This document shows positions 2,073 through 24,777 of a stretch of DNA of 24,777 nt, one piece after another (position 1 is the first letter of the stretch; the number at the start of each line of letters is the position of its first letter). The stretch covers positions 1 through 24,777 of IMG/VR virus record IMGVR_UViG_3300037010_000096; one strand, written 5' to 3'. Source of the stretch: a virus. The translations under genes were made by a program, and so were the position numbers. A model generated the notes under the pieces. The model ran no database searches and had not been told where the DNA came from. It saw only the letters and a list, made by a program, of their open reading frames with translations.

Positions 2073-2834
2073 ATGCAATTAAAAATAACAAATACATTTG
2101 AAAGTTATTTGAATAACTATAATAATAGTATTATGGATCGTATAAACGTATCTGAGATGGTTTCTACAACAAGTACTGTAAAAGACAGATGTGTATTTAA
2201 GTACAGTAGAGATACAGACTTAATTAAACAGTACTACAGAGACTGTTTAGTATCAATTTCTACGCAGGATTCCTTTACACTAGTTAAAAACTATTTTCCA
2301 AGTGTATTAGATATTATCCATATTCCAGCGGGTATTGAATACATTGCCAGTTTTAATAACGAAAAAATTATCAGACTTATATTCGTAAATCCAGTTACAC
2401 AAAAAGATTATGTAACAAAAACGTATATTGCTTTAAACCTCAGATCTGGAAACATGACTTGGGATATTTCAGGCAATTTACTAACACCTTTGGAACACAA
2501 ATGGGTACATACTGTTATTGACATCAAATATGTCAATTCTTGGATTAAAAATAATATGCAAGAATTGGTATCTATGCGTAGTAATAATAAGAGGTTAAAT
2601 CCTAGTACTAGTAATCATAGTGTGATTGCTTACATTTCAGACATACAAGCTTATCTTGATAACACTATTATAGATGTAAGGTTAACTAGATTACTAGAAG
2701 CATCAGACTTTAAAAAACTTGTAGCACACTATCTAAAATCTATTGGTGATGATCGTGCTCACATTAATACGTACTTTGATACATACGAAGAACTTGAACA
2801 ATACAGAGCTAACAGACTAAAGGAAAATAAATGA
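2073..2834 (+). CDS. Hypothetical protein
   Basis: This encodes 253 residues from an ATG preceded by CAGGAA. No motif was recognised. The composition suggests a soluble alpha/beta protein with a helical, charged C-terminus ending YRANRLKENK. Its stop codon overlaps the ATG of thyX (ATGA), so it is co-translated with the nucleotide-metabolism block and may belong to it. The 50 bases upstream (2023-2072) show no clear promoter or hairpin. Confidence 0.75.
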   Translation: MQLKITNTFESYLNNYNNSIMDRINVSEMVSTTSTVKDRCVFKYSRDTDLIKQYYRDCLVSISTQDSFTLVKNYFPSVLDIIHIPAGIEYIASFNNEKIIRLIFVNPVTQKDYVTKTYIALNLRSGNMTWDISGNLLTPLEHKWVHTVIDIKYVNSWIKNNMQELVSMRSNNKRLNPSTSNHSVIAYISDIQAYLDNTIIDVRLTRLLEASDFKKLVAHYLKSIGDDRAHINTYFDTYEELEQYRANRLKENK

Positions 2835-3802
2835 AAGTAGAATTACTTGAAAATACTCAAGATGATACATTTATCGCAAATGTAGCTAGAGTTAGTTTCG
2901 ATAAGTGGAGCACAGAACCTCAAGAACGAGATGCAGGATTGATTAAATATCTTGCTACTAATAAACACATTAGTCCATTCTTCCACGTAAGGCTTACATT
3001 CTTACTTAATGAAAATGATATCGACTTTAAAGTTATCACAGATCCAACATTGTTAAGAGGAGCTGTATGGGATTATTCTAAAGCAGAACAGACATTACTG
3101 TTTCGTACCTCTTATTACGGATGGGTTCGTTTAATCCAATCAGGACAACTAAACAATCTCGCCAGTAATCGTATTGCTAAATTACTCTTAGATATGAGTA
3201 CTTTGAAATATGTAAATGAAGCTTATAAGTTAACTTATAATGCGGATTTGGTTTTGCCAGCACAGCGTGAAAGATATATTCCTAATTCTAGTTCATCTTT
3301 AACAGCTGAAATGGTAGATGTAAGCTTACGTATTACATGTGCTATTCCTGTAGCTCGACAACTATTTACACACCGCATGTTTGATACTAATGAGATTAGT
3401 CGTAGATATGTATCTGCTAGTCCTACAGTACATCTATTTGATTCGCTACGTTCTAAACCAGAAGGTAGTGTTAAACAAGGTAGTGCTGGAGAGCATCCTA
3501 ATAGTACTATGTGGATCAATGCTATGCAGTATAGCTATAAAGAAGATTTAGCTTTGTATGATAACATGATTGCTGATGGTGTAGCACCTGAGCAAGCCAG
3601 ATTTGTATTACCTCAAGCTATGGAGACTAGTATTATCTTTACTGGGTCTATCGCTTCTTGGGCTAAATTGATAATTAGCCGCACAGATTCCCATGCTCAA
3701 CTTGAAATCCAAGATGTAGCTAACGACATTCACGATATTCTTAGTACTGATAAACGATATGCTGAGCTATATTTACAAAACTTTGATTATACCAACTGTT
3801 AA
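2831..3802 (+). CDS. thyX: Flavin-dependent thymidylate synthase, divergent and enlarged
   Basis: ThyX converts dUMP to dTMP using methylenetetrahydrofolate, NADPH and FAD. The signature is visible at residues 180-193 (THRMFDTNEISRRY), corresponding to RHRx7S followed by RRY; the active-site Ser is S190. The C-terminal block, with LPQAMET, SRTDSHAQLEIQ and the conserved Arg, also fits. The N-terminal HISPF block lies at residues 46-50. The protein has 323 residues against about 220-250 normally. The excess lies between residue 62 and about 160, where the family has only a short connector. The first Arg of RHR is Thr, and the usual SPFEH reads SPFFH. ATGA overlap with the preceding gene and AAGGA upstream support this start. 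Confidence 0.85.
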   Translation: MKVELLENTQDDTFIANVARVSFDKWSTEPQERDAGLIKYLATNKHISPFFHVRLTFLLNENDIDFKVITDPTLLRGAVWDYSKAEQTLLFRTSYYGWVRLIQSGQLNNLASNRIAKLLLDMSTLKYVNEAYKLTYNADLVLPAQRERYIPNSSSSLTAEMVDVSLRITCAIPVARQLFTHRMFDTNEISRRYVSASPTVHLFDSLRSKPEGSVKQGSAGEHPNSTMWINAMQYSYKEDLALYDNMIADGVAPEQARFVLPQAMETSIIFTGSIASWAKLIISRTDSHAQLEIQDVANDIHDILSTDKRYAELYLQNFDYTNC

Positions 3803-4673: not shown

Positions 4674-5758
4674 TGAGTGTATTTAGACCGACAGCAGTAT
4701 CCCACCTAGAGCAGCCAATGTTTCTAGGTGAAGGTGTAGATGTAGCTCGATATGATGACATGAAATATCCTTGGATTGATAAGTTTACAGAACGTCAATT
4801 AAGCTTCTTTTGGAGACCAGAAGAGATTGATCTGACTAAAGATAAGCATGACTTCAATAAGCTTACAGAAGCTGAACAGCATATGTTTACTAGCAATCTA
4901 AAGTACCAAATCCTCTTAGATTCGGTACAAGGTCGTAGTCCTAATTTAGCATTTCTACCTATCGTTAGTTTACCTGAATTAGAGACTTGGATTGAAACAT
5001 GGGCATTTAGTGAAACTATCCATAGTAGGAGTTACACCCACATTATCCGTAATGTGTACCCTAATCCTAGTGAAGTACTTGATCAGATTACCTCTATTGA
5101 GGAGATTTTAGAAAGAGCTGCTAGTGTTGGGGAAGAGTACGATTTATTAATTAAAATGAATCAAACACCTGAGATTGGTCCAATTAGATGTATGTCACAA
5201 ATATATAGAACTTTGTTCAGTGTGTATGCACTTGAATCAGTTAGATTCTATGTATCATTTGCCTGCTCATTTAGTTTCAATGAAAGATCTCTGATGGAAG
5301 GTAACTCTAAGATCATCACTCTTATTGCTAGAGACGAAAGTCTTCATATGAGTGCAGTTCAGCATATCCTTACAACGCTTGCAAATGGCTCTGAAGGAGA
5401 GTTGTGGGCTAGTGTAGCAAATGGTAACTCTACTTGGATTAAAACAACTATGGACGCTGTAATTAAGCAGGAAACAGCTTGGGCTGAATACTTGTTTAGT
5501 AGAGGTCCAGTTCTTGGTCTTAATGCAGAAATTCTTACACAATATATCCGTTATATAGCTGACATCCGTATGAAAGCTATCGGAGTAGTTACAAACTATT
5601 CTGGAGATAAGAAAAAGAATCCAATCCCCTGGATTAACAAATACTTAAATTCAGATACAGTACAAGTAGCTCCTCAAGAGACAGAAATCAGCTCTTACCT
5701 TACAGGTGCAGTTGATAGTACAATCGACAGTTCTTTATTTGGAGGTATGAGTTTGTGA
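4670..5758 (+). CDS. nrdB: Ribonucleotide reductase class Ia, small subunit
   Basis: NrdB houses the diiron-tyrosyl radical used by NrdA to reduce ribonucleoside diphosphates. From the ATG at 4670 the protein has 362 residues. The diiron ligands are all present: D84, E115, H118, E189, E223 and H226. The radical tyrosine falls at Y122, in the SETIHSRSYTHIIRN segment. Long blocks match the E. coli protein closely, such as QLSFFWRPEE, QGRSPN and NPIPWIN. The C-terminal tail ends FGGMSL, which should dock on NrdA. ATG 4670 overlaps the preceding stop by four bases and is chosen over GTG 4664; ATG 4673 is equally possible. Confidence 0.95.
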   Translation: MMSVFRPTAVSHLEQPMFLGEGVDVARYDDMKYPWIDKFTERQLSFFWRPEEIDLTKDKHDFNKLTEAEQHMFTSNLKYQILLDSVQGRSPNLAFLPIVSLPELETWIETWAFSETIHSRSYTHIIRNVYPNPSEVLDQITSIEEILERAASVGEEYDLLIKMNQTPEIGPIRCMSQIYRTLFSVYALESVRFYVSFACSFSFNERSLMEGNSKIITLIARDESLHMSAVQHILTTLANGSEGELWASVANGNSTWIKTTMDAVIKQETAWAEYLFSRGPVLGLNAEILTQYIRYIADIRMKAIGVVTNYSGDKKKNPIPWINKYLNSDTVQVAPQETEISSYLTGAVDSTIDSSLFGGMSL

Positions 5759-7989
5759 TAATTAATGTATTAAAAAGAAATGGTGAATCAGAACCACTGG
5801 ATATCAAGAAGATCGAAAATGTACTTTCATGGGCAGCAGAAGGATTAGATGTATCTGTATCCGAAGTTGCTCTAAAAGCACATATCCAGCTTGCTGATGG
5901 TGTCAGTACTGATAGCATTCATGAGTTACTTATTAAGTCAGCTGCTGATCTTATTAGTGTTCATGAGCCTGACTATCAGTATATGGCAGCTAAGCTTGCT
6001 ATGATGGCTTTAAGAAAGCGTGTACATAACAGCAATAACCCAACTTACTTTACTGATGTAGTTAAAACTAACGTTAATCTAGGTAAGTATGATCCAGAAG
6101 TATTAGAATTGTATTCTACAGATGAGCTTAATGAGTTAGCCGATCATATTGATTATGATCGAGATTTCTTATTCAGCTATGCTGCAACAATCCAACTACT
6201 TACTAAGTATCTAGTACAAGATCGTGTTACAGGTCAACATTATGAGACTCCACAAGCAGCTTATATGATGATTGCTGCAACATTGTTTGGTAAGTACTCT
6301 AAAGTTATTAGAATGATGTATGTTAAAGCTTTCTATGATGCAGTATCACTTCATAAGATTAGCTTACCTACACCGATTATGGGAGGTTTAAGAACTCCTA
6401 CACGTCAGTTTAGTTCATGTGTATTAATTGAATCGGATGATTCTCTGAAATCAATTAATGCTACAGCAGCAGCCGTTATTAACTACATTTCTCAAAAGGC
6501 AGGTATTGGTCTTAACGTAGGACGTATTCGTACTGAAGGTTCTAAGATCCGTAATGGAGATGCTAGACATACTGGCGTAATTCCATTCATGAAACACTTC
6601 CATTCAGCTGTTAAAAGCTGTTCACAGGGAGCTATTCGTGGAGGTAGTGCTACTATGTTCTACCCACTGTGGCGATTAGATATTATGGATCTGTTAGTAC
6701 TTAAAAATAACAGAGGTACTGAAGAGACGCGTATTCGAGGTAGTGACTATGGTGTGCAACTAAATAAGCTTATGTATCAACGTTTGTTAACAAATGGTGT
6801 TATTACTTTATTTAGTCCTAGTGATGTGCCTGGATTGTACGATGCTTTCTTCCAAGACCAAGATGAGTTTGAACGTCTATATGTTCAGTATGAGCATGAT
6901 ACTTCTATTCGTAAAGATGTAATTAAAGCTTCTGCTTTATTTGCTGCTCTTATGCAAGAACGTGCTCAGACAGGACGTATCTATATTCAGAACGTAGATC
7001 ACTGCAATACTAACAGTGCATTTATTGCTGAAGTAGATCCAATTAAGCAATCCAATCTGTGTATGGAAATCACTTTACCTACTAAACCGATGGGTACAGA
7101 AGATGAAGAGATTGCTCTATGCACATTAGCAGCTATTAATTTAGGTGCTATTGATGAGTTGCATGAATTAGCACACTTATCTGACTTACTAGTTAGAGGT
7201 TTAGATGCACTATTAGACTATCAAGATTATCCTGAAGAAGCGGCTTTAAAAGCTAAATCTCGTAGATCACTTGGTATTGGTGTAACTAACTTTGCTTACT
7301 ATCTAGCAAAGAATGGTGTTTACTATTCCAACGGTTCTGCTAACAACTTAGTCCATAGAACTATGGAAGCACTCCAATACTATCTTTTAGATGCTAGTAA
7401 TACATTAGCTTTTGAAGTAGGTGCTTGTGAATACTATCGGAATACATCATATTCGCAAAACGTTCTACCTATTGACCGTTACAAGAAAGATGTAGATACT
7501 GTCCATACACAAGAACTTTTATTGGATTGGGAGCTGTTACGTAGGAATATTGCAACTCACGGTTTACGTAACTCTACTGTAACTGCTCAGATGCCTTGTG
7601 AGACTAGTTCTGCAGTAACTAACTCAACTAACGGTATAGAACCTCCTAGAGGTCTTGTATCCGTTAAAGCGAGTAAGTCTGGTACATACAATCAAGTAGT
7701 TCCAGATGTAGGTACTGTTAACTATGAGCTTTTATGGGATATTCCTGATAATACAGGCTATTTGGAGATTGTTGCTATTATGCAGAAATTTATCGATCAA
7801 TCGGTATCTGCTAATACTAACTATGATCCGATGCGGTTTGAAGGGGAAAAAGTTCCCATGAACATCTTGATTCGTGATTTAATTACTACTTACAAGCTAG
7901 GTATCAAAGCCCTCTATTACCATAACACTCGTGACGGTAATAACCAAGATAGTGATGATGGTTGTGCTGGTGGAGCATGTAAATTGTAA
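5755..7989 (+). CDS. nrdA: Ribonucleotide reductase class Ia, large catalytic subunit
   Basis: This 744-residue subunit reduces NDPs to dNDPs. Catalytic residues are complete: the redox pair C222 and C456, thiyl radical site C436 with N434 and E438 (SNLCMEITLP), radical-transfer tyrosines Y721 and Y722, and the C-terminal shuttle pair C737 and C742 in CAGGACKL. Residues 1-90 form an ATP-cone, but two positions linked to dATP inhibition in E. coli (D57 and H88) are S54 and A85 here. GTG is the start codon, in a GTGA overlap with nrdB, with GGAGGT eight bases upstream. No intron or intein interrupts it. The thioredoxin or glutaredoxin partner is not in the window. Confidence 0.95.
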   Translation: MIINVLKRNGESEPLDIKKIENVLSWAAEGLDVSVSEVALKAHIQLADGVSTDSIHELLIKSAADLISVHEPDYQYMAAKLAMMALRKRVHNSNNPTYFTDVVKTNVNLGKYDPEVLELYSTDELNELADHIDYDRDFLFSYAATIQLLTKYLVQDRVTGQHYETPQAAYMMIAATLFGKYSKVIRMMYVKAFYDAVSLHKISLPTPIMGGLRTPTRQFSSCVLIESDDSLKSINATAAAVINYISQKAGIGLNVGRIRTEGSKIRNGDARHTGVIPFMKHFHSAVKSCSQGAIRGGSATMFYPLWRLDIMDLLVLKNNRGTEETRIRGSDYGVQLNKLMYQRLLTNGVITLFSPSDVPGLYDAFFQDQDEFERLYVQYEHDTSIRKDVIKASALFAALMQERAQTGRIYIQNVDHCNTNSAFIAEVDPIKQSNLCMEITLPTKPMGTEDEEIALCTLAAINLGAIDELHELAHLSDLLVRGLDALLDYQDYPEEAALKAKSRRSLGIGVTNFAYYLAKNGVYYSNGSANNLVHRTMEALQYYLLDASNTLAFEVGACEYYRNTSYSQNVLPIDRYKKDVDTVHTQELLLDWELLRRNIATHGLRNSTVTAQMPCETSSAVTNSTNGIEPPRGLVSVKASKSGTYNQVVPDVGTVNYELLWDIPDNTGYLEIVAIMQKFIDQSVSANTNYDPMRFEGEKVPMNILIRDLITTYKLGIKALYYHNTRDGNNQDSDDGCAGGACKL

Positions 7990-15859: not shown

Positions 15860-15890
15860 GCTCTCTGCTCATAACAGAGAGCTTTTTTAT
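15860..15890 (+). terminator. Intrinsic terminator after the replication operon
   Basis: An 8-bp perfect stem, GCTCTCTG with CAGAGAGC, has the loop CTCATAA and is followed by six T residues (15883-15888). This is a textbook rho-independent terminator for the rightward operon ending in the SSB gene. Confidence 0.9.
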
Positions 15891-15939: not shown

Positions 15940-16356
15940 ATGAAACCAGCAGACGTAACTTTCTATTCTAGTATGGCTACATTAGTGGCTTCTAGAAGTC
16001 ACTGTAGAAGGCGTAAAGTCGGAGCAGTACTAGTTTCAGAAGATGCTAGTAACATCCTTGCATATGGCTTTAACGGAAGTCCTAGAGGTATGGATAACTG
16101 TTGTGAAGACCTGGAAGGTATTACTAAGTCTACAACAATACATGCAGAACTTAATGCTATTTCTAAAGCAGCTAAGTTAGGTCATTCAACAGATAGAGCT
16201 ATTATGTTTGTGACCCTAAGTCCATGCATAAACTGTGCTCTGTTGATTATTCAGGCAGGAATTAAAACTGTGTACTTTAACGAGTACTATAAAGATACTC
16301 TTGGTTTAAAACTACTACAAGATAGTGGTATTAAAACTAAGTTTGTCGGTAACTAA
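15940..16356 (+). CDS. Deoxycytidylate deaminase
   Basis: This 138-residue enzyme deaminates dCMP to dUMP, the substrate for ThyX. The zinc site is clear: H68-A-E70 (HAELNAI) and PC96xxC99 (SPCINC). GFNGSPRGMDNCC at residues 46-58 matches the substrate loop of phage T4 dCMP deaminase. It lacks the long insertion of the T4 enzyme and is compact. ATG 15940 has AAGGAA upstream. It is transcribed separately from the nrd/thyX block, after the terminator, and tRNA-Ile2 begins four bases after its stop. Allosteric control by dCTP/dTTP is usual in the family but not demonstrable here. Confidence 0.93.
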   Translation: MKPADVTFYSSMATLVASRSHCRRRKVGAVLVSEDASNILAYGFNGSPRGMDNCCEDLEGITKSTTIHAELNAISKAAKLGHSTDRAIMFVTLSPCINCALLIIQAGIKTVYFNEYYKDTLGLKLLQDSGIKTKFVGN

Positions 16357-16359
16357 TAT

Positions 16360-16434
16360 AGGACTGTAATTCAAAGGTTAGAATAGGCGACTCATAATCG
16401 TTCAATCAGGGTTCAAGTCCCTGCGGTCCTACCA
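16360..16434 (+). tRNA. tRNA with CAU anticodon, tRNA-Ile2 type
   Basis: This is a 75-base cloverleaf with encoded CCA. AGGACTG pairs with CGGTCCT (16424-16430; one G-U), and the D-stem is ATTC/GAAT. The anticodon arm reads GGCGA, loop CTCATAA, TCGTT. The T-arm CAGGG/CCCTG has loop TTCAAGT. Anticodon CAT could mean elongator Met, but GGCGACTCATAATCG is the same as in E. coli tRNA-Ile2, whose C34 is changed to lysidine by TilS so that it reads AUA. ATA codons are frequent in this phage. I favour Ile2; initiator tRNA is unlikely because the anticodon stem lacks the three G-C pairs. Confidence 0.9.
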
Positions 16435-16448
16435 TATAAACCATATAA
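16431..16448. repeat. Tandem 9-bp direct repeat at a tRNA 3' end
   Basis: ACCATATAA occurs twice head to tail (16431-16439 and 16440-16448). The first copy includes the ACCA tail of tRNA-Ile2, and the second runs into the ribosome site of the next gene. It may be a simple slippage duplication or a scar of recombination at the tRNA end. Confidence 0.6.
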
Positions 16449-16460
16449 AGGAAATACAGA

Positions 16461-16961
16461 ATGTATACCACAACACATATTGGGTTAAAGAGTGTTAAAG
16501 CTACGCCTATGACACGTGGAGACTACAACACATACAGAGGGTGGTCATTACCTTCAGATGAGAAATTCGATGACGAAGGGTATCTAATCGAGTACGAACC
16601 TCGTCAAGGGGAAGAATCGAATGTTCAGGGACACGAAGGCTATGTATCTTGGTCTCCAGAACAAGTATTCGACGATGCATACCATAACGTACATAGTAAT
16701 CTACCATTCGGACTAGCGTTAGAGCTGGCAAAGCAAGGCTTCGCCATCGCACGACGCGGCTGGAACGGTAAAGGCTTAAAAATCTCTGTGCAACAGCCTT
16801 TAGAAGGCTCAGACATGAGTCTACCTTACCTGTATATGCAGTATCCGACTACCCCTGCAAGTGACAGTGCGCCCAGCTCACACATTAACGCAAAAGTACC
16901 TTGGTTGGCGAGCCAGACAGACCTTCTAAGTTCTGACTGGTATGTAGTAGAGGAGAACTAA
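16461..16961 (+). CDS. Tad2-like (DUF2829) anti-Thoeris candidate with N-terminal extension
   Basis: This encodes 166 residues. From about residue 80 onward it follows the DUF2829/Tad2 pattern: PFGLALELAKQGFAIARRGWNGKG, then PYLYMQ, then VPWLASQTDLLSSDWYVV. Tad2 proteins are phage-encoded sponges that bind the cyclic ADP-ribose-type signals of the Thoeris defence. Residues 1-79 (PMTRGDYNTYRGW, EGYLIEY, EGYVSWSP) form an extra domain seen in other phage proteins of this kind; its role is unknown to me. G+C over 16681-16920 is about 50% by hand count, against about 30% just downstream, which suggests recent acquisition. AAAGGAAA precedes the ATG. Anti-defence function is inferred from family membership. 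Confidence 0.75.
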   Translation: MYTTTHIGLKSVKATPMTRGDYNTYRGWSLPSDEKFDDEGYLIEYEPRQGEESNVQGHEGYVSWSPEQVFDDAYHNVHSNLPFGLALELAKQGFAIARRGWNGKGLKISVQQPLEGSDMSLPYLYMQYPTTPASDSAPSSHINAKVPWLASQTDLLSSDWYVVEEN

Positions 16962-17186
16962 ATGGAAAATCAACATCGTTTAATCACTGGTTATCGAGAA
17001 TTAAGTCAAGAAGAAATTAACTTAATGAACGCTATTAAGCAAGCAGGTCAAACACTTGAAACGTTAGTTCAGTATTTATTAGATACAGACTCGACTGATA
17101 AACGTTGGGTAAGTATCGGACGAACTGACTTACAAACTGGCATTATGGCATTAGTCCGTAGTGTTGCTAAACCAACTTCTTTTTAA
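16962..17186 (+). CDS. Acb2-like anti-CBASS candidate (Acb2/Tad1 hairpin domain)
   Basis: This encodes 74 residues directly after the stop of the Tad2-like gene, with GAGGAG upstream. GYRELSQEEINLMNAIK at residues 10-26, then RWVSIGRTDLQTGIMALVRS and VAKP near the C-terminus, match the helical-hairpin pattern of Acb2-type proteins. Those form oligomers that bind cyclic di- and trinucleotides and block CBASS signalling. Length and the two-helix layout fit. The ligand-binding residues cannot be verified by eye. Its adjacency to a Tad2-like gene supports an anti-defence role, and G+C here returns to the phage average. Confidence 0.7.
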   Translation: MENQHRLITGYRELSQEEINLMNAIKQAGQTLETLVQYLLDTDSTDKRWVSIGRTDLQTGIMALVRSVAKPTSF

Positions 17187-17205
17187 TTATCAAAAGGATA
17201 CATGC

Positions 17206-17244
17206 ATGGATAAATTTAATTTACTGGTGAGAATTTATGATTAG
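17206..17244 (+). other. Possible 12-codon leader ORF
   Basis: An ATG at 17206 opens a 12-codon frame (MDKFNLLVRIYD) with AAAAGGA about eight bases upstream. Its stop codon overlaps the ATG of the following gene at 17237. It could couple translation into that gene, or be chance. A second ATG at 17202 gives only three codons. Confidence 0.2.
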
Positions 17245-17518
17245 CATAACTACTAATTCAAATTATAATGTAGATATTGTACAAATTCATACAAAACTAT
17301 CACCGAGTAAGAATACAGCTACAGCTGTTGTGTTACTTAACACTGGTTTTGAGATGGTAGGTTCAGCACAATTTGCTGTAAGTATTGTAGAACCTGACGA
17401 AGAAGCTTATAAAAAATTACGTGCAGCAGCAGTTATGGATGCAGTTGATAATATTATCGATATAGATTCACAATCTACACCTGTACGTGATTTATTTTAC
17501 GATCTGTATTTCGTATGA
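17237..17518 (+). CDS. Small protein, possibly N4 gp49 / Sf6 gp66 family
   Basis: This encodes 93 residues. The central segment with VVLLNTGFEMVGSAQF and the following EEAYKKLRAAAVMDAVDNI helix resemble the N4 gp49/Sf6 gp66 family, which has a strand with NGF, a G-x-SA segment and then an acidic helix. The match is weak. The location, near the end of the rightward genes and before vRNAP, is where N4 gp49 lies. Function of that family is not known to me. The stop overlaps the next start (ATGA). Confidence 0.6.
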   Translation: MISITTNSNYNVDIVQIHTKLSPSKNTATAVVLLNTGFEMVGSAQFAVSIVEPDEEAYKKLRAAAVMDAVDNIIDIDSQSTPVRDLFYDLYFV

Positions 17519-17922
17519 TTAACTTAACACTTCCTGTCTACTATGAAGAAACATTCAAGACTAAGCCAAGTAAAACTTTCCTATTAGGTATGAATGTGTA
17601 TAGAAATATACACTTTCATCTTAAAAATAAGGTTAAAGTCCATTTTGAACGGTTAATAGTTCACCAACTACTTAATCTTGATCCTCCTAAAATAGTAGGC
17701 AAATACCAGATTGAATATGTCTATTACTATAAAAGTACAGTTAGTGATCTGATGAACGTAGTAAGCTTAATTAGTAAATTTACTAATGATGCTTTACAAA
17801 ACTATGGTGCAGTTGTAAATGATAATGTCCAATATTGTATTAAAGAGTCTGCAACAGTAGGAGGACAAGATAAGCTAAATCCAAGAGTAGAAATCAAGAT
17901 TACACCATATATCGAGGTGTGA
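17515..17922 (+). CDS. RusA-like Holliday junction resolvase
   Basis: This encodes 135 residues. The N-terminal FLLGMNVYRNIHFHLKNKVK segment and the later block with SDLMNVV, KFTNDALQ and DDN-like NDNVQY, then VGGQDKLNPRVEIKI, resemble phage RusA-type endonucleases. In that family spaced Asp residues bind Mg2+ and cut four-way junctions. Candidate metal ligands are the Asp in SDLMN, the Asp in NDALQ and the Asp in NDNVQ. The order of strands and the terminal GQDKxNPR motif are typical of phage versions. It would resolve branched DNA before packaging. It overlaps the preceding gene by four bases. Confidence 0.65.
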   Translation: MINLTLPVYYEETFKTKPSKTFLLGMNVYRNIHFHLKNKVKVHFERLIVHQLLNLDPPKIVGKYQIEYVYYYKSTVSDLMNVVSLISKFTNDALQNYGAVVNDNVQYCIKESATVGGQDKLNPRVEIKITPYIEV

Positions 17923-17924
17923 TA

Positions 17925-18083
17925 ATGATTAAGTCAATATTGTGGTTTATAGGTATACTGCTCATATTGCTAATACTGGGTGTAGTAGTATTTTTTATAA
18001 AACCTCTACTATGGGTAATAGCAGCTGCTTTAATAGCGTTTGTAATTGCCTACGATAAAGCAAAAAAGGATAGTGATTACTAA
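17925..18083 (+). CDS. 52-residue two-helix membrane peptide
   Basis: This short gene starts at ATG 17925, two bases after the stop of the RusA-like gene, and ends at TAA 18081-18083. It has two hydrophobic segments, residues 5-24 (ILWFIGILLILLILGVVVFF) and 27-43 (PLLWVIAAALIAFVIAY), followed by a charged tail DKAKKDSDY. A helical-hairpin inner-membrane protein with a cytoplasmic tail is expected. It could be a lysis or superinfection factor, but nothing proves this. The last codons overlap the terminator hairpin of the opposing vRNAP transcript. Confidence 0.6.
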   Translation: MIKSILWFIGILLILLILGVVVFFIKPLLWVIAAALIAFVIAYDKAKKDSDY

Positions 18084-18108: not shown

Positions 18109-21100
18109 CTACTTAGGAGTCATAAATTTAAATAAATCCATATATATCTCTAAACCGCTAGGTGTAACACCAGTTTCAACTATATCTAAAGGATTAAGGT
18201 GCATCATAATACCTAAGTCTTTAACGAACATAGAAGAATCTTGTATTACACTTAAATCTAGTAATGCATAGTTAGCAGTTAATGCTAATGCAGAACTTAA
18301 AGATCTATCTTTAACCTGTTTTCTAATCACTTTCTGAATACCAACAAAGTATTTAGTAAACATAAACAAACCAATAGAGTTAGCGAAATCTAGGCTCTTA
18401 GGATCAGGTAGATCATATTGGATAAATGCTTCAGCTATGAAAGTCATAATATCTGATTTAGATAATTGCTTATCTTTAGGTAATTTATTATTCTCAGCTA
18501 TAGTATGTTTATGCAGTACGTATCTACCAACAAAGTCACTATATTTAACAGTATTGTTTAAAAGCTTAAACATACTAGTATTAGGATTCATCATCAAATG
18601 ATCCACTACAGCACCAGCATAAGGTATCTTACTGAGCTTATCTATACCTGTACTAGCTAAAGCACTTTTACTACTAATGAATGTAGCAGCCATCTTAGGA
18701 AGACTTAATAACGGATCTGTTAAGTTATTAGCACCTACGTCTTCTGTAATAGATTGGAAGAAGCCTTCTTTAACTAAATCTCTAATAGGACTCTTATCAA
18801 GTACGTTATTCAGCATTTCAATTCTACGTTGAGTAGCTGTTTTAGCTGAACCAGTCATACCAGATAGTTTAGCTTGCAGTGTTAACATCTCTGCTCTTAT
18901 GTCTAAGAATTTCTTAAGTTCTAAAGCACCATCCCTATAACCATTATAAATGTCTTTTAGAGGTACACCTTGGATAGCTAAGTAGATAGTGTTAGATATT
19001 AAGTTAGCTTCTACTACTTTAGGCATACGAATAACAATTTTGTTCTTTGTTAAAGATACAAAATCTTGCCAAGTTCTGGTAATCAGGTTACTAAAGTATT
19101 TGACAGGTACTTTAGGCATCTTAGCTTGCATAAACTTAACAATAGAAGAGTCACCTACTAAGTATTTTTCAAAACCAAGAGCCAAAGGTACAGAGCCTTT
19201 TGGTACAGGTATTCCTGATCTACCGAAAGTACTTTCTATATCTGCTTTAGTTTGAGCAGGTAAACTCTTATACAAATCACCATATTCTTTATGGTTAGCG
19301 TCTATCCATTCAAACTTATTAGCGTTAGTAGCTTTTTCAGCATCCCACTGACGTTTAGCTACTTCTACCATCTTAGTATTATGATTAGGAGTCAGTTGCT
19401 TATTTAACTTACTTCCATACATTCTACCTAAAGCTTCTGATGCGCTATACTTTTTATTCAGATGCTTAACTCTATTACTTTCAGAAATATTGATTACATA
19501 ATCAATAATTTCACCATTATTATTAAGAATAGGTACGAAATCCCTAGAAGCATTTAAGTTATTAACACGTTTTGCTATCTCTTTTGGATCAGTAATTCCA
19601 GCATCTCTAAGCATGTCAGAATAAGAAGTACCTTTACGTCTGTTAGACATTAAACTAAATACGCCTGAATGTACTTGAGCTTTCATGACATTAGAGCGTA
19701 CATACATACTGAGGCTAGTACCTGTAATAGGATCTTGTACCATTAGTTCTGTAGTATTCCAACCGTCTGCTTTAAGCTCTTTAACATCACTTGTACGCAT
19801 AAAAGCATATTCTTTAGTGTTATCGATAGCTTCTCTAGTGTAGCCTTTAATCATCTGTAGCTCAGAACCGTGGAATATAGTTTCTTTAGTATCCTGTACA
19901 TAGCCTCTATGGAACTCTAGAAGGTTATTCAACCCTTCCTCTAGACCGCCAATACCATCTAATGTAGTTACATCTACAGAAGCTTTTTGAATAGCTAATG
20001 CAGTTATGTATGCATCAAGGTCAGGTACACTAATTTCAGATTTAGCATGTAAAGCAATTGCTGTAGAGTTTCTTAACTGGTTCTTCTGTGAAGTTTTACC
20101 TGTAATCATATACTCAGCTAAACCGTTAGCTTGGCTGATAATAGCAGGAGACAGTTTAAGTCTTGCTTCAGTATCTTTAATGAACTTAGCTAACTTAGAG
20201 GAATCTTTAAGCATATCAATAGTAGCTTTAACGTCGTAGTTTAAATGAGCGTGTAGAGCTTGTAGATCAGTTCTGAGTACAGTACGCTCTAAGAAGTCAT
20301 CCTGCTCTTCCGTGAGCTTTGTAAAGCCATTTTTAACACTACCAGTAACAGTCTCTTGAATAGCTTTACGATGCATCTCAATACCTGCTTTAGTGACACG
20401 TAAAGCTTTTATCCAAGGTTTAGATAATGGATCTTCAGTGAAGACCTGATGATACAGATGCTTCAATAAGCCAGTATCTTTAAGGACAGTAGCATGTGCT
20501 AAAGTGCTTAGTGCTTGAGTTCTATCTTCATAGGTTAAAATGCTACTAGCAGCTCTTAGAGCTTCTACATCTGTATAACCCATAGTTGATTTAGCTAAGT
20601 TGTAGTAAGCCCACTGAGCTAATTTAAGCTGTTCTGGATCCAGTCTTGTAGACGTAGTAGATGTAGTTGTAGGTTTGTTAGATTGCTTCTCATACCAAGC
20701 ATCATACTTCTCACTAAACTTATCGAAAGTAGTACTTACTTTCTTGTTAGCTGCTTCTACAGCATTGTCAACTTTGTTTAAAAAGCCATCTGAACTAGCT
20801 GCAATTTTACTCTTAGCTTCTACTTCAATTAAGTGTTGAGCTAAACTTATTAAAGCATCATGTACATTAGTTGGTTTACGTCCTTCAACAGATTTATCTA
20901 ACAACTTACCAATAAGATTAAGCACTGCTGTAACAATCTTATCTAAGAAAGAACCTTCTTTAACTAGTTTTAGAATAGCTGAAGGAGTTTGGATAGTATT
21001 AGTATCCTTAATATTCTTAAGAGCATCTCTAAAGTTAGGATTAGATAAACCAAAAGAAATAAACTCTAACAATCCTACGTTAGTGCCGTTAATACTCTTT

Positions 21101-24100
21101 GTGTTATTGAAGATATAGTCATAAAGAGCTTTAGCTTCTGCAATCTCTTGAGCAGTATTAGTTAGAGTATTGTTAGGCAGAAATACTGTGTAATCCAAAG
21201 CATCCTTAGCCATAGTCCAAAGGTCTAACAACTCTTTAGATTTAACTCCCTCTAGTGCAGATGCAGTAGTAGCTACGTGTAAGAATTCATGTAATAGAAT
21301 TTCAGTATTAGACTGAGTAACGTTATTTACTGGACTAGCTTGACGAATAACATCAATCTTACGGTTGATAGTATCAGCTGAACCTGTGTTTAAAGAACCA
21401 TCATGTAGTTCTACTAATACTGGATCTATAGCAGTCGATACTTTACTGTAGAGTTTGCCTAAAAGGTCTTGCATCTCTTTTAAATAACTAGGATTTACAT
21501 TCTGGTTATCTTTAGCTGCAACAGTTGTAGCTAGTGTAAGGATGTCTTCTACACTATTAACTGTATCACTAGAAACCAAAGAAGTAAGGGTAGCTTTGTC
21601 AGCATTAGGATTACCAAATAAGCTTCCGTCTTCTTTAGATGTATCTTCAGTAGTGTCTTTAGAAGTATCCGCTAAAGAATCAGGATCTAACATACTCTTA
21701 TAACTAGTAATCATATCCTGTAAGCTTGGTAGCTTTTTAGGTGTAATTTTAGCTCTAATAGCTCCCATACCACCAGCAGTAGGGTATTGATCTACTGTGG
21801 CTTCATTACTGAATAATATTGAGTTATTGTCATTAATATACTTAGTATACATGTCGTATATACCATATAGATCAACAGCTTCATCACTATTTTTTGAAGA
21901 TCTTGGTGTAAGCATCTTAGAATTGACTGTTTTAAGCTCTTCATCAGTAAAGTGACCTAGTACTTTATCACTATCTGAAGAATTTAGACTAACTTCAAGT
22001 CTAGCTAGTAAAAATCTTTTGTTCAATAATGATGACATAGAATCCTCTAAAGGATTATACATCTCCATCAATTCAATAGTAGATTCGTTCAGGAATCTAG
22101 ATACTTGAGCTGCGTGTTCACTACTGGTTTTAACAGCATCAAATACATGCAATCCTGTAATACCAGCAGCTTTCATTTTCTTAATGGTTAGAGCCATAAT
22201 AGCCGCATCTTGAGCATGAGTCATTAATGCAGAAGCAGCTACACCAGGATCACCTACATCTTTACGTTCGACACCAATATTTCTAGAAGCTACTGTTTTA
22301 CCAACTATGGTAGGCTGCATATCTTCAGATATACCAGCATAGCTATTAGCTGAATGCTTCATGTTAACTGTAGCTCTATCATTAGTACCTTCAACTACTA
22401 ATGTAAATACAGGAGAACCTACTATTTGCTTATCGTCCTCAAAAAGGTAAGGCTTACTATCCTTTAACCCAAAAGGCCCGTTAAATGATGGTATGAAAGG
22501 TCTTAACTGTTTAGCTAAACTTTCAGCCTGCTTAATAGTCATATCATTATCATTAGGATTAATACCTAAAGACTCTTTAATACGCTTCTCAGCCTCTTTA
22601 TATATAGTGTACTGCTCTTGGAATATTTTAGTAGTTAACTTAGCAACATTACGTTGATTAGACATAATTTCAGATACAGCTATAGTTAAGGATTCAGCGG
22701 TAGGTTTTATTAACTTATCTTTTAATACATTTAGTTGTTTAGGTGTAAGTCTAAAATTAATAGCATTTTCAGGTGAAAGGCTATCTATATTCCTCATACC
22801 GTTAGTGTCAGTAATGTCTTTAGCTAAAGCTTGTTTCAAAGACTTTTTGAAAGCATCAAATGCTGTTCTATCGCCTTGTTTAGCTAAATTAGCTACATAC
22901 ATTATACGGTTAGGTATATGTGTACTAAAAATTTCATCGGTAACATTACCATCAATGGTAGATTCACCAGCATTGTATGAGAATACCATTAATGGGTTTT
23001 TATTCAGTTCTCTAGCAATTTTTGATATAATACCATCATCACTTACTAATACTTCACCTAGCAGATTGGAAATAGCTTTTAATTTAGCTTGTGCAACTTC
23101 AGGTGCATCGTTAGAGAATACACTTTTCAATACTCCAGACATACCCTCAGCATTATGCTCGTATATGTCAGATTCATGATGCCCTACTAAACCATTTTTA
23201 TTAGAAGCCCAATCAGCAAATGATTTAAAAGAGTTATTTAAGTATATACCTACTTTACGTAATAACGTTTCTTGAGTTGCTAAGTCACCAATAGGACTCT
23301 GTACTAAAGCTAAGAATACGCCATTAGATTTACCATCTACTTCTACTACTAGAGTGGATGTAAATTTATGTTTAGTTGCTTTACCTTCTCTAGGGAAACG
23401 GAGAGTAAGGTTAGCTAAATCCATAAGAGTACTTAAGTCTTCTACTTTACCTACCATACCTTCAGTAGTATTGATTGCTTTATATAGCTTACCAATATCT
23501 ACAGATGTAGATATAGATGTGTCTTCATTTAAAAGCTTCTGTAGGTCATTTAAAGCGTCCTCTGAGAGGTTCTTAGACAGTGTTGTCATAAGTTTTCTCA
23601 TGCTTTTACGAGCACTCTCTACAGCAGCAGTATCAGACTTCTCGTCTATTAAACCAAGGTTAGATGCTAAAGCATCTTTATAGTCATTATTGGTAGCAGG
23701 AGCTTTAATTACATTATGTGAGTTGCTGTCTACTAAGAACAGTCTATGAATAGCTTTATCACTTCCTGGATTGATTGTAGAATCTAATCTGATACGATCA
23801 TTCACATCAACTGCATATCTGGCAAAGAAGTCATTATCTAACTTAGAAGTATCTTGACCAATATCATTATCAATAAAATCTAGTAGTCTCTTAACACTAC
23901 GAATATGATCAGTTATTACAGCTTCTTGCTCTATACGCTTCATAGCCTGTACATTGTTATCAACGAAGTATCTTACACTCTCAGTAATTTCAGTATCATC
24001 TAAACCAGTAAGTTTAAAGTTGCCTAAATCACTTAGTGATTGGATGACTTGTTGGGCAGCAGCTACTCTAGTAGAAGGTTCTACTAATAACCTAACCAAG

Positions 24101-24777
24101 TATGGATTAAACTTAAATGGAGTTTCATTTAAAGTCTTAGCAGCATTTGTAACTTCTTTAGGCGGTACTCTATTCGCAGCTCTAGTAGTTTTGACACTGC
24201 CATAGGCAGCAGGTTGTAGAGCTTTGGTATCAGTTCGCGATTCACCTCTAAAAGCTTCTAGAATGTCTTTACCTGAAGGATCTTTTAACTGCTTCATCAG
24301 TTCTTCCCAAACAGCTTCGTTATCTACATTAAACTTAAAATATAAGTTTGTAGCTACACTCTTACTCGGTGTTGGTGCTCTTGTTGGATTCTGCAGAATT
24401 TGTTTAAGCTCTGCAACTGCACTATTAGGTACTTCAGAATAGGTTACTAAACCAAGGATGTTCAAGTAGTTTAGTGCTGCTACACCTAGAGCTGTATGCA
24501 TAGCATCTTTATCTTCTACAAAAGATTCCTCAGAAAATTCGATATTACTCATTCTAGCAATATCTTTACCAATACTCATCGCAGCAGTACTTACAGGTAA
24601 GCCTACTGTCTTTAAGAATGCTTCAGCTTTACGTACATATTCAACAGGTACTTTTGCCAAACTCTTAGCACCAAAAACCTGCTCTACCGTACTTAAAGTA
24701 ATGTCGGTAGTACTCTTAAGCATGAATTTAGCATAATCTAAAGCAGCAACTACTACATGTGCTGCAACTGTAGGATC
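18109..24777 (-). CDS. N4-like virion-encapsidated RNA polymerase (5' end outside window)
   Basis: The frame is open to the window edge; the 18 codons beyond Met 24723 read as normal protein (start DPTVAAHVVV), so that Met is internal and over 2,220 residues are visible. Numbering from Met 24723, single-subunit RNAP motifs are: T/DxxGR-like D306-V-N-D-R310; motif A EVDGKSNG with D463; motif B R571-x3-K575-x3-M579-x3-Y583; motif C GLHVFDA with D862, preceded by THAQDAA. K575-Y583 spacing equals that of N4 vRNAP, and D463-K575-D862 spacing is nearly the same. It would be packaged, injected and transcribe early genes. The C-terminal half has HEFLH at 1145-1149, a Thr/Ser linker near 1350 and a long helical region. 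About 1,000 further residues probably lie upstream. Confidence 0.9.
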   Translation of the reverse strand, partial: DPTVAAHVVVAALDYAKFMLKSTTDITLSTVEQVFGAKSLAKVPVEYVRKAEAFLKTVGLPVSTAAMSIGKDIARMSNIEFSEESFVEDKDAMHTALGVAALNYLNILGLVTYSEVPNSAVAELKQILQNPTRAPTPSKSVATNLYFKFNVDNEAVWEELMKQLKDPSGKDILEAFRGESRTDTKALQPAAYGSVKTTRAANRVPPKEVTNAAKTLNETPFKFNPYLVRLLVEPSTRVAAAQQVIQSLSDLGNFKLTGLDDTEITESVRYFVDNNVQAMKRIEQEAVITDHIRSVKRLLDFIDNDIGQDTSKLDNDFFARYAVDVNDRIRLDSTINPGSDKAIHRLFLVDSNSHNVIKAPATNNDYKDALASNLGLIDEKSDTAAVESARKSMRKLMTTLSKNLSEDALNDLQKLLNEDTSISTSVDIGKLYKAINTTEGMVGKVEDLSTLMDLANLTLRFPREGKATKHKFTSTLVVEVDGKSNGVFLALVQSPIGDLATQETLLRKVGIYLNNSFKSFADWASNKNGLVGHHESDIYEHNAEGMSGVLKSVFSNDAPEVAQAKLKAISNLLGEVLVSDDGIISKIARELNKNPLMVFSYNAGESTIDGNVTDEIFSTHIPNRIMYVANLAKQGDRTAFDAFKKSLKQALAKDITDTNGMRNIDSLSPENAINFRLTPKQLNVLKDKLIKPTAESLTIAVSEIMSNQRNVAKLTTKIFQEQYTIYKEAEKRIKESLGINPNDNDMTIKQAESLAKQLRPFIPSFNGPFGLKDSKPYLFEDDKQIVGSPVFTLVVEGTNDRATVNMKHSANSYAGISEDMQPTIVGKTVASRNIGVERKDVGDPGVAASALMTHAQDAAIMALTIKKMKAAGITGLHVFDAVKTSSEHAAQVSRFLNESTIELMEMYNPLEDSMSSLLNKRFLLARLEVSLNSSDSDKVLGHFTDEELKTVNSKMLTPRSSKNSDEAVDLYGIYDMYTKYINDNNSILFSNEATVDQYPTAGGMGAIRAKITPKKLPSLQDMITSYKSMLDPDSLADTSKDTTEDTSKEDGSLFGNPNADKATLTSLVSSDTVNSVEDILTLATTVAAKDNQNVNPSYLKEMQDLLGKLYSKVSTAIDPVLVELHDGSLNTGSADTINRKIDVIRQASPVNNVTQSNTEILLHEFLHVATTASALEGVKSKELLDLWTMAKDALDYTVFLPNNTLTNTAQEIAEAKALYDYIFNNTKSINGTNVGLLEFISFGLSNPNFRDALKNIKDTNTIQTPSAILKLVKEGSFLDKIVTAVLNLIGKLLDKSVEGRKPTNVHDALISLAQHLIEVEAKSKIAASSDGFLNKVDNAVEAANKKVSTTFDKFSEKYDAWYEKQSNKPTTTSTTSTRLDPEQLKLAQWAYYNLAKSTMGYTDVEALRAASSILTYEDRTQALSTLAHATVLKDTGLLKHLYHQVFTEDPLSKPWIKALRVTKAGIEMHRKAIQETVTGSVKNGFTKLTEEQDDFLERTVLRTDLQALHAHLNYDVKATIDMLKDSSKLAKFIKDTEARLKLSPAIISQANGLAEYMITGKTSQKNQLRNSTAIALHAKSEISVPDLDAYITALAIQKASVDVTTLDGIGGLEEGLNNLLEFHRGYVQDTKETIFHGSELQMIKGYTREAIDNTKEYAFMRTSDVKELKADGWNTTELMVQDPITGTSLSMYVRSNVMKAQVHSGVFSLMSNRRKGTSYSDMLRDAGITDPKEIAKRVNNLNASRDFVPILNNNGEIIDYVINISESNRVKHLNKKYSASEALGRMYGSKLNKQLTPNHNTKMVEVAKRQWDAEKATNANKFEWIDANHKEYGDLYKSLPAQTKADIESTFGRSGIPVPKGSVPLALGFEKYLVGDSSIVKFMQAKMPKVPVKYFSNLITRTWQDFVSLTKNKIVIRMPKVVEANLISNTIYLAIQGVPLKDIYNGYRDGALELKKFLDIRAEMLTLQAKLSGMTGSAKTATQRRIEMLNNVLDKSPIRDLVKEGFFQSITEDVGANNLTDPLLSLPKMAATFISSKSALASTGIDKLSKIPYAGAVVDHLMMNPNTSMFKLLNNTVKYSDFVGRYVLHKHTIAENNKLPKDKQLSKSDIMTFIAEAFIQYDLPDPKSLDFANSIGLFMFTKYFVGIQKVIRKQVKDRSLSSALALTANYALLDLSVIQDSSMFVKDLGIMMHLNPLDIVETGVTPSGLEIYMDLFKFMTPK

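Follow-up and report, generated by a model that had tools for sequence, protein, structure and literature searches.

The locus

The window, i.e., the whole stretch of 24,777 nucleotides that was analysed, carries two small open reading frames side by side on the + strand, one at 16461-16961 (166 amino acids) for a Tad2-like protein and one at 16962-17186 (74 amino acids) for an Acb2 protein. Together they fill exactly the stretch (16461-17186) described in the first-pass annotation, which had proposed that a Tad2-type sponge of Thoeris signals is followed, with no gap between stop and start, by an Acb2-type sponge of CBASS signals. The features of the region are as follows (loci compared with the window are given L numbers).

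15860..15882, + strand: terminator-like hairpin and T run after ssb (consensus match only)
15940..16356, + strand: dCMP deaminase gene (PF00383, 9.2e-24)
16360..16434, + strand: tRNA-Met(CAT) gene, part of the block common to L003
16361..17195, + strand: block of tRNA, tad2 and acb2 (79.5% to L003; L002 has 16426-17195, 75.6%)
16461..16961, + strand: Tad2-like gene, 166 amino acids, positional counterpart of N4 gp49
16461..16697, + strand: N-terminal domain (N-domain) of the Tad2-like protein, about residues 1-79/80, unnamed in Pfam, also present in some proteins with Acb2, Acb4 or PF21825 domains
16707..16949, + strand: Tad2 domain, residues 83-163 (PF11195, 6.3e-17; Z 11.4 with Myroides phage Tad2)
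16962..17186, + strand: Acb2 gene, 74 amino acids (PF24729, 1.2e-17)
17237..17518, + strand: 93-amino-acid protein of no named family, kept in the N4-like L001, L004, L005 and L006
17515..17922, + strand: RusA-like Holliday junction resolvase (phrog_1682, 5.9e-27)
17919..18083, + strand: small hydrophobic membrane-like protein, judged from sequence (no profile over the cut-off)
18109..24723, − strand: virion RNA polymerase (vRNAP), C-terminal part, the frame leaving the window (phrog_2206, 8.4e-211, profile search)

Judged by its sequence, the phage is N4-like, i.e., related to E. coli phage N4. It has the Schitoviridae trait of a giant virion RNA polymerase encoded on the opposite strand after the middle genes, with a layout as in N4. 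The gene order common to the window and to N4 gp43-gp50 is primase, Sak4-like protein, SSB, tRNA, Tad2-like protein and vRNAP, and the small genes between these shared genes differ between the two phages; the full order in N4 is primase, Sak4, SSB, gp46-gp47, tRNAs, gp48, gp49 and vRNAP. A near-identical relative contig, 73,858 bases long, has 99.97% identity to the window over 7,014 bases. Elsewhere in the window there are genes for a thymidylate synthase-like protein (2831-3802; phrog_85) and for the large subunit of ribonucleotide reductase (5755-7989). PADLOC, the library of which consists of defence, not counter-defence, proteins, gave no match for 10 window proteins.

At the junction of the two genes the TAA of tad2 abuts the ATG of acb2 (GAGGAGAACTAAATG), and an AGGAG resembling a ribosome-binding site lies within the last codons of tad2, six bases before the acb2 ATG. 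In the stretch from the tad2 start codon to acb2, a consensus scan found no promoter-like or terminator-like match starting on the + strand. In the surrounding region, promoter-like matches were at the level of shuffled sequence (9 versus 9.2), and there were 3 terminator-like matches versus 1.2 in shuffles; the hairpin at 15860..15882 may bound the transcription unit upstream. The two genes would form one such unit and would be co-transcribed, the putative ribosome-binding site of acb2 being located inside the end of tad2.

The two predicted sponges

The assignment of the first gene to DUF2829/Tad2 was borne out: residues 83-163 match PF11195 with 62.3 bits, the Pfam cut-off being 25, and the solved relatives in a sequence search are chains of Tad2, AcrIIA7 and Gp34.65. 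A monomer model of the 166-residue protein, from a 46-row alignment, has a pLDDT of 91.2, and its C-terminal half superimposes on solved Tad2 with Z 10.0-11.4 and rmsd 1.6-2.2 Å over 71-76 aligned residues, the top match being 8v3e_B (Z 11.4, rmsd 1.6, 72 residues). In Foldseek, each of the first 24 matches is a chain of Tad2 or AcrIIA7, and complexes of SPO1 Tad2 with gcADPR are among them. Tad2 is a tetramer with two shared ligand pockets, which sequesters messengers of the gcADPR type and inhibits Thoeris. The window protein has the same C-terminal profile and predicted fold as the known Tad2 proteins (SPO1 Gp34.65, HgmTad2/AcrIIA7, SptTad2 and ModTad2; PF11195), together with the motifs GWNGKG and WLASQTD..DW. 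It differs from them in having an extra N-terminal domain of about 80 residues, which lies outside the matches to solved Tad2 chains, and in that its gene is paired with the gene for a CBASS sponge.

Acb2 is a hexamer that binds cyclic di- and trinucleotides and inhibits CBASS. In agreement with the hairpin family that had been proposed for the second gene, PF24729 (Acb2_Tad1_hairpin) matches residues 10-70 with 64.2 bits (cut-off 27), and the closest solved relative is p26 (8h2j, 2.9e-19), which we take to be Acb2 of phage PaMx33. The likeness to known Acb2 (p26, T4 Vs.4; PF24729) extends over the whole length, and the window protein keeps the invariant positions, which include Y11, K26 (presumably with a role in the pocket), R48 and R66. 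The inter-helix loop, however, is shorter than in p26 (74 versus 93 amino acids for the proteins), whereas the helices are not shortened, and the window gene differs further in abutting a Tad2-like gene.

Positions studied in T4 Acb2 can be located in the window protein, using an inferred offset of one residue between chain and T4 numbering. Y8, the Y8A change of which disrupts binding (PMC12657218, PMC12657230), aligns with window Y11, which is invariant in 24 of 24 Acb2 sequences, and T68, where T68M reduces affinity (PMC12657230), aligns with the nearly invariant T55. F82, which stacks on the ligand in T4 Acb2 (PMC12657218), has no equivalent: the window has A69 in its place, and p26 has alanine too, so F82 does not define the family. 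Both genes are under purifying selection, with dN/dS of 0.07-0.15 for tad2 and 0.03-0.15 for acb2 (window and four relatives, 10 pairs for each gene).

Comparison with N4 and other Schitoviridae

In N4, gp48 directly precedes gp49, with an overlap of one base, and matches PF13876. This is the Acb4 family, eight of eight tested homologues of which bound 3′3′-cGAMP (PMC11722364); gp48 itself goes under the name Acb4, and both knocking it down and expressing it affect Panoptes in the way expected of Acb4 (PMC12657230). The window has the same site (after the tRNAs, before vRNAP) and the same Tad2-like gene with its N-terminal domain, but in N4 the sponge is Acb4 and lies upstream of the Tad2-like gene, whereas the window has the unrelated Acb2, downstream of that gene.

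A PF13876-type gene is located at most 1.3 kb before vRNAP in seven of seven further N4-like records, which were picked via matches to the Tad2-like protein (Bas96, PE007, ECBP1, KP8, Moonfish) or to PF21825 (Kpn16-P2, nithesis) and are not a sample of the family; the call was made by a custom profile for PE007 and by Pfam for the other six. A Tad2-like gene follows the PF13876-type gene in six of the seven, the exception being nithesis, and its presence in five is expected, since these were picked via Tad2-like matches. The sponge at the locus is thus Acb4 in all eight N4-like records examined (N4 included) and Acb2 in the window. Around the Acb2 gene of Zuri (Schitoviridae), which lies near terminase, no Tad2-like or N-domain gene was found in 5.2 kb, nor was one found in the 5.2 kb surrounding the Acb2 gene of Vibrio phage CHOED; in Vibrio phage 41E34.2 a Tad2-like gene is present, with no recognised Acb2 or Acb4 in 5.5 kb. 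A tblastn query of Tad2 and Acb2 joined end to end ran up to 28 residues into its Acb2 part in N4-like phages, but this was not Acb2: by translation, the downstream gene of Bas96 encodes a different protein of 97 amino acids with no Pfam match, so the overrun is an end-run alignment.

Read from gene order, the locus is a counter-defence site of N4-like phages between the tRNA genes and vRNAP, not a random accessory slot. The first-pass description of an accessory slot was therefore half right, in that the CBASS sponge beside tad2 varies but the Tad2-like gene sits at the fixed site of N4 gp49. The advice to look for further anti-defence functions in the neighbouring genes holds for the related loci, with their Acb4 and PF21825 genes; in the window itself, the genes for the 93-amino-acid protein, the RusA-like resolvase and the membrane-like protein come next.

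The same block in unrelated phages

The abutting tad2-acb2 pair occurs in six viral contigs, L001-L006. Four of these are N4-like (L001, which is nearly identical to the window, L004, L005 and L006), and two, L002 and L003, are otherwise unrelated to the window, their DNA matching it only in the block listed above. The edges of the block are sharp in both (identity at most 0.42 in 40-base steps beyond), and in L003 it includes the tRNA-Met. An assembly artefact is an unlikely source of the shared block, since the copies diverge by 20-25%. The uncorrected synonymous difference between the window and L006 is 0.63 in tad2 and 0.53 in acb2 compared with 0.25 in SSB, as if the cassette had been replaced relative to the L006 lineage. 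The alignments suggest that tad2-acb2 is an exchangeable cassette at a counter-defence locus.

How general is the pairing?

Three scans of viral contigs, with Acb2, N-domain and Tad2 alignments as queries, confirmed at least 578, 560 and 586 loci, respectively, and the best 80 of each were kept. Iterated profiles served to mark the families over 293 loci in all, and identical proteins were removed before counting. The survey covers the closest loci instead of a random selection, and a few contigs belong to more than one of the three sets. For these reasons, and because the null, random gene order, takes no account of the clustering of small genes, the P values should be taken as nominal.

Among the Acb2 loci (best 80 of 578), a partner, i.e., a Tad2 or N-domain gene, is present in 6 of 71 and is adjacent in all six (0.6 expected; nominal P 5e-7), four of these cases belonging to the window's clade or the shared block. 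The N-domain loci (best 80 of 560) have a CBASS sponge in 15 of 74, adjacent in 11 (1.9 expected; nominal P 8e-8) and fused in 3 more, and none of the 11 comes from the window's clade. For the Tad2 loci (best 80 of 586) there is a sponge in 9 of 74, adjacent in 6 (1.3 expected; nominal P 5e-4), two of them from the window's clade or block, with 1 more fused. Bacterial genomes show the same arrangement: at 49 loci found with the N-terminal domain as query, a separate sponge is present in 7 and adjacent in 6 (1.1 expected; P 7e-5), and 3 are fused.

Over the 293 loci, the adjacent pairs form 25 groups when clustered at 70% identity (one doubtful), in both gene orders, and the two genes are present but apart in 11 loci. 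The commonest neighbours at 152 N-domain or Tad2 loci are CBASS sponges, with 20 cases (12 Acb4, 8 Acb2) that make up one single-linkage cluster; the next families have 5. Thus, where the surveyed loci have a sponge in the vicinity of a Tad2-like gene, the two mostly lie next to each other, and in some cases they are fused.

Several individual loci may be mentioned. The pair in L258 is doubtful, its maximal frames overlapping by 277 bases. Enterobacteria phage IME10 (Lederbergvirus) has unannotated Tad2-like and Acb4 genes (L300:2504-3004 and 3296-3676), separated by 291 bases, in the interval from the lysis genes to terminase. Divergent PF24729 hairpin genes, missed by the first Acb2 profile, lie directly after Tad2 at L261:5249-5452 and L256:1009-1251.

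The N-terminal domain and PF21825

Residues 1-80 of the Tad2-like protein form an extra domain, which is absent from the first-pass annotation. The domain has no match in Pfam at E up to 1, its best match among PDB sequences has E 0.19, its best Foldseek match has E 1.4 and, modelled alone, its best Z is 2.5. Within the full model there are weak Tudor-like matches with Z 3.8-4.5 (CarD 4.5, Mfd, UvrD); matches of a model at this level show neither a known nor a new fold. The domain has 13 invariant columns in 56 sequences and stands alone as a gene of 73 amino acids in L055.

There are 97 distinct N-domain proteins, in which the remainder of the protein is Tad2 (69), Acb4 (2), Acb2 (1), other (22) or shorter than 30 residues (3). 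Twenty of the 22 other remainders match a profile built from 16 of them, and all four given to Pfam are PF21825 (crAss001_48). Fused proteins with two or three of the N-domain, Tad2, Acb2, Acb4 and PF21825 occur in L356, L387, L404, L175, L161, L188, L200 and L263. Pfam searches bear out Acb2 in L161, Acb4 in L200 and the two halves of the Acb4+Tad2 protein in L263, and find PF21825 fused to Acb4/PF13876 (L356, L387) or to Tad2/PF11195 (L404, L175). At L066:5339-5941 the N-terminal domain has an unassigned C-terminal part and lies beside an Acb2 gene, and at L201:4974-5594 it is joined to a weak PF24729-type hairpin, which is under the cut-off.

A scan seeded with PF21825 added 55 loci with 49 distinct proteins, of which 32 have none of the other domains, 14 have the N-domain and 3 have Acb4 or Tad2; all six seeds were N-domain proteins, so that N-domain partners were favoured, and several contigs had already been surveyed. 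Nine of the loci contain a sponge or N-domain gene, which is the direct neighbour in 6 (1.6 expected; nominal P 0.001); L385, among these 6, is a contig that the survey had already included. PF21825 genes are located at L295:2977-3180 (KP8), L296:3198-3401 (Moonfish), L406:1501-1704 and L407:1501-1707; KP8, Moonfish, Kpn16-P2 and nithesis each have one further along the Acb4/Tad2 locus, and that of Moonfish carries the annotation "putative terminase ATPase subunit". T4 DenB.1 is also PF21825 (4.3e-19; L405:3244-3438), its gene having rIIB and denB, and no known sponge, as its neighbours, and the KP8 member is matched by 514 of 50,697 phage records. The idea that PF21825 is a remote form of Acb2 gained no support, as hhalign of the alignments found nothing (probability 1.9%).

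We infer the functions of the adapter domain and of PF21825 from their genomic company only. On a tentative reading, which we hold possible rather than likely, the sponges would be a modular, exchangeable toolkit, in which the N-domain is an adapter for Tad2, Acb2, Acb4 and PF21825, and PF21825 is an unrecognised counter-signalling family, possibly a new sponge.

A probable cassette against two kinds of messenger

The two genes probably constitute a counter-signalling cassette of an N4-like phage, i.e., predicted sponges of Thoeris and CBASS messengers in an exchangeable unit. This upholds the two-gene anti-defence cassette of the first-pass annotation, and it is supported by the profiles, the predicted Tad2 fold, the two Acb2 positions, selection, recurrence in the survey and presence in unrelated phages. 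By analogy with other members of the two families (PMC12043709), the Tad2-like protein would hold the TIR-made messengers of Thoeris (glycocyclic ADP-ribose and relatives) and Acb2 would hold the cyclic di- and trinucleotides of CBASS, so that neither effector would be triggered during phage replication and the infected cells would not destroy themselves. At this locus in N4-like relatives, the partner of the same Tad2-like gene is Acb4.

Both proteins might instead target one class of messenger, with the Tad2-like protein mainly binding cyclic dinucleotides in a layered anti-CBASS device. Some Tad2 proteins do bind cyclic dinucleotides, so overlap with the ligands of Acb2 is possible: a review describes binding of cGG and 3′3′-cGAMP by Tad2 besides gcADPR (PMC12043709). 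In addition, Acb2 alone is described as giving partial protection, and adjacent, synergistic counter-defence pairs are described (PMC13083879). However, 3′3′-cGAMP was not bound by SPO1 Tad2 (PMC11722364), and we regard the layered device as unlikely. No difference in Tad2 length by partner status was found that could decide between the readings. A related hypothesis, in which Tad2 proteins encoded beside a CBASS sponge are without the insertion that is linked to cyclic-dinucleotide binding, was not supported by the distance between the Tad2 motifs, with medians of 44 beside Acb2 (n = 10, about half from the window's clade), 44 beside Acb4 (n = 12) and 40 without a partner (n = 106), six proteins being unmeasured.

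Another explanation is that the N-terminal domain is the working part, binding a host or phage target, and that Tad2, Acb2, Acb4 and PF21825 are exchangeable units for sensing or oligomerisation. The domain is strongly conserved, can stand alone and has four different partners, and its weak Tudor-like matches include CarD, Mfd and UvrD, which bind RNA polymerase. Those matches are nevertheless below a meaningful level, with none above Z 2.5 for the domain alone, and three of its four partners are established sponges, which function elsewhere without the N-domain, which makes this explanation improbable.

It is very improbable that two small genes common in phages are neighbours here by coincidence. 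In favour of chance, the majority of the surveyed Tad2-like and Acb2 genes are unpaired, and some of the adjacent cases come from the window's own clade; but where a partner is present in the locus it is mostly adjacent (6/6, 11/15 and 6/9, and 6/7 in the bacterial loci), the same domains are found fused, the block is common to unrelated phages and CBASS sponges are the commonest neighbours. Decay or inactivity of the two genes, for which the short Acb2 and its lack of an F82 equivalent might speak, is scarcely credible given the low dN/dS of 0.03-0.15, the common Acb2 relatives of the same length and the shortening of the loop rather than the helices.

The proposed cassette for two kinds of messenger can be compared with Dap1/Dap2 of Pseudomonas phage PaoP5, which are likewise two adjacent counter-defence genes acting together (PMC13083879); those, however, protect one phage protein from Lon protease, and the available text describes no nucleotide messengers. 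Searches of the open-licence literature, which leaves out most subscription papers, turned up no description of tad2 in a pair with acb2 or acb4 or of the wider pattern, no published test of N4 gp49 and no paper naming crAss001_48.

What the locus means

The single pair is a new arrangement of known families, and the wider pattern is more interesting. N4 gp49 is implied to be a Tad2-like protein beside a known Acb4. Panoptes is triggered by Acb2 and Acb4 (PMC12657218, PMC12657230); sponges thus carry a price, namely exposure to Panoptes, and what the locus contains may follow the host's defences. Different immune messengers would be countered by sponges stacked in one exchangeable unit, in which the CBASS partner varies and the Tad2-like gene is retained, and the adapter domain and PF21825 (including T4 DenB.1) are testable candidates for new counter-defence functions.
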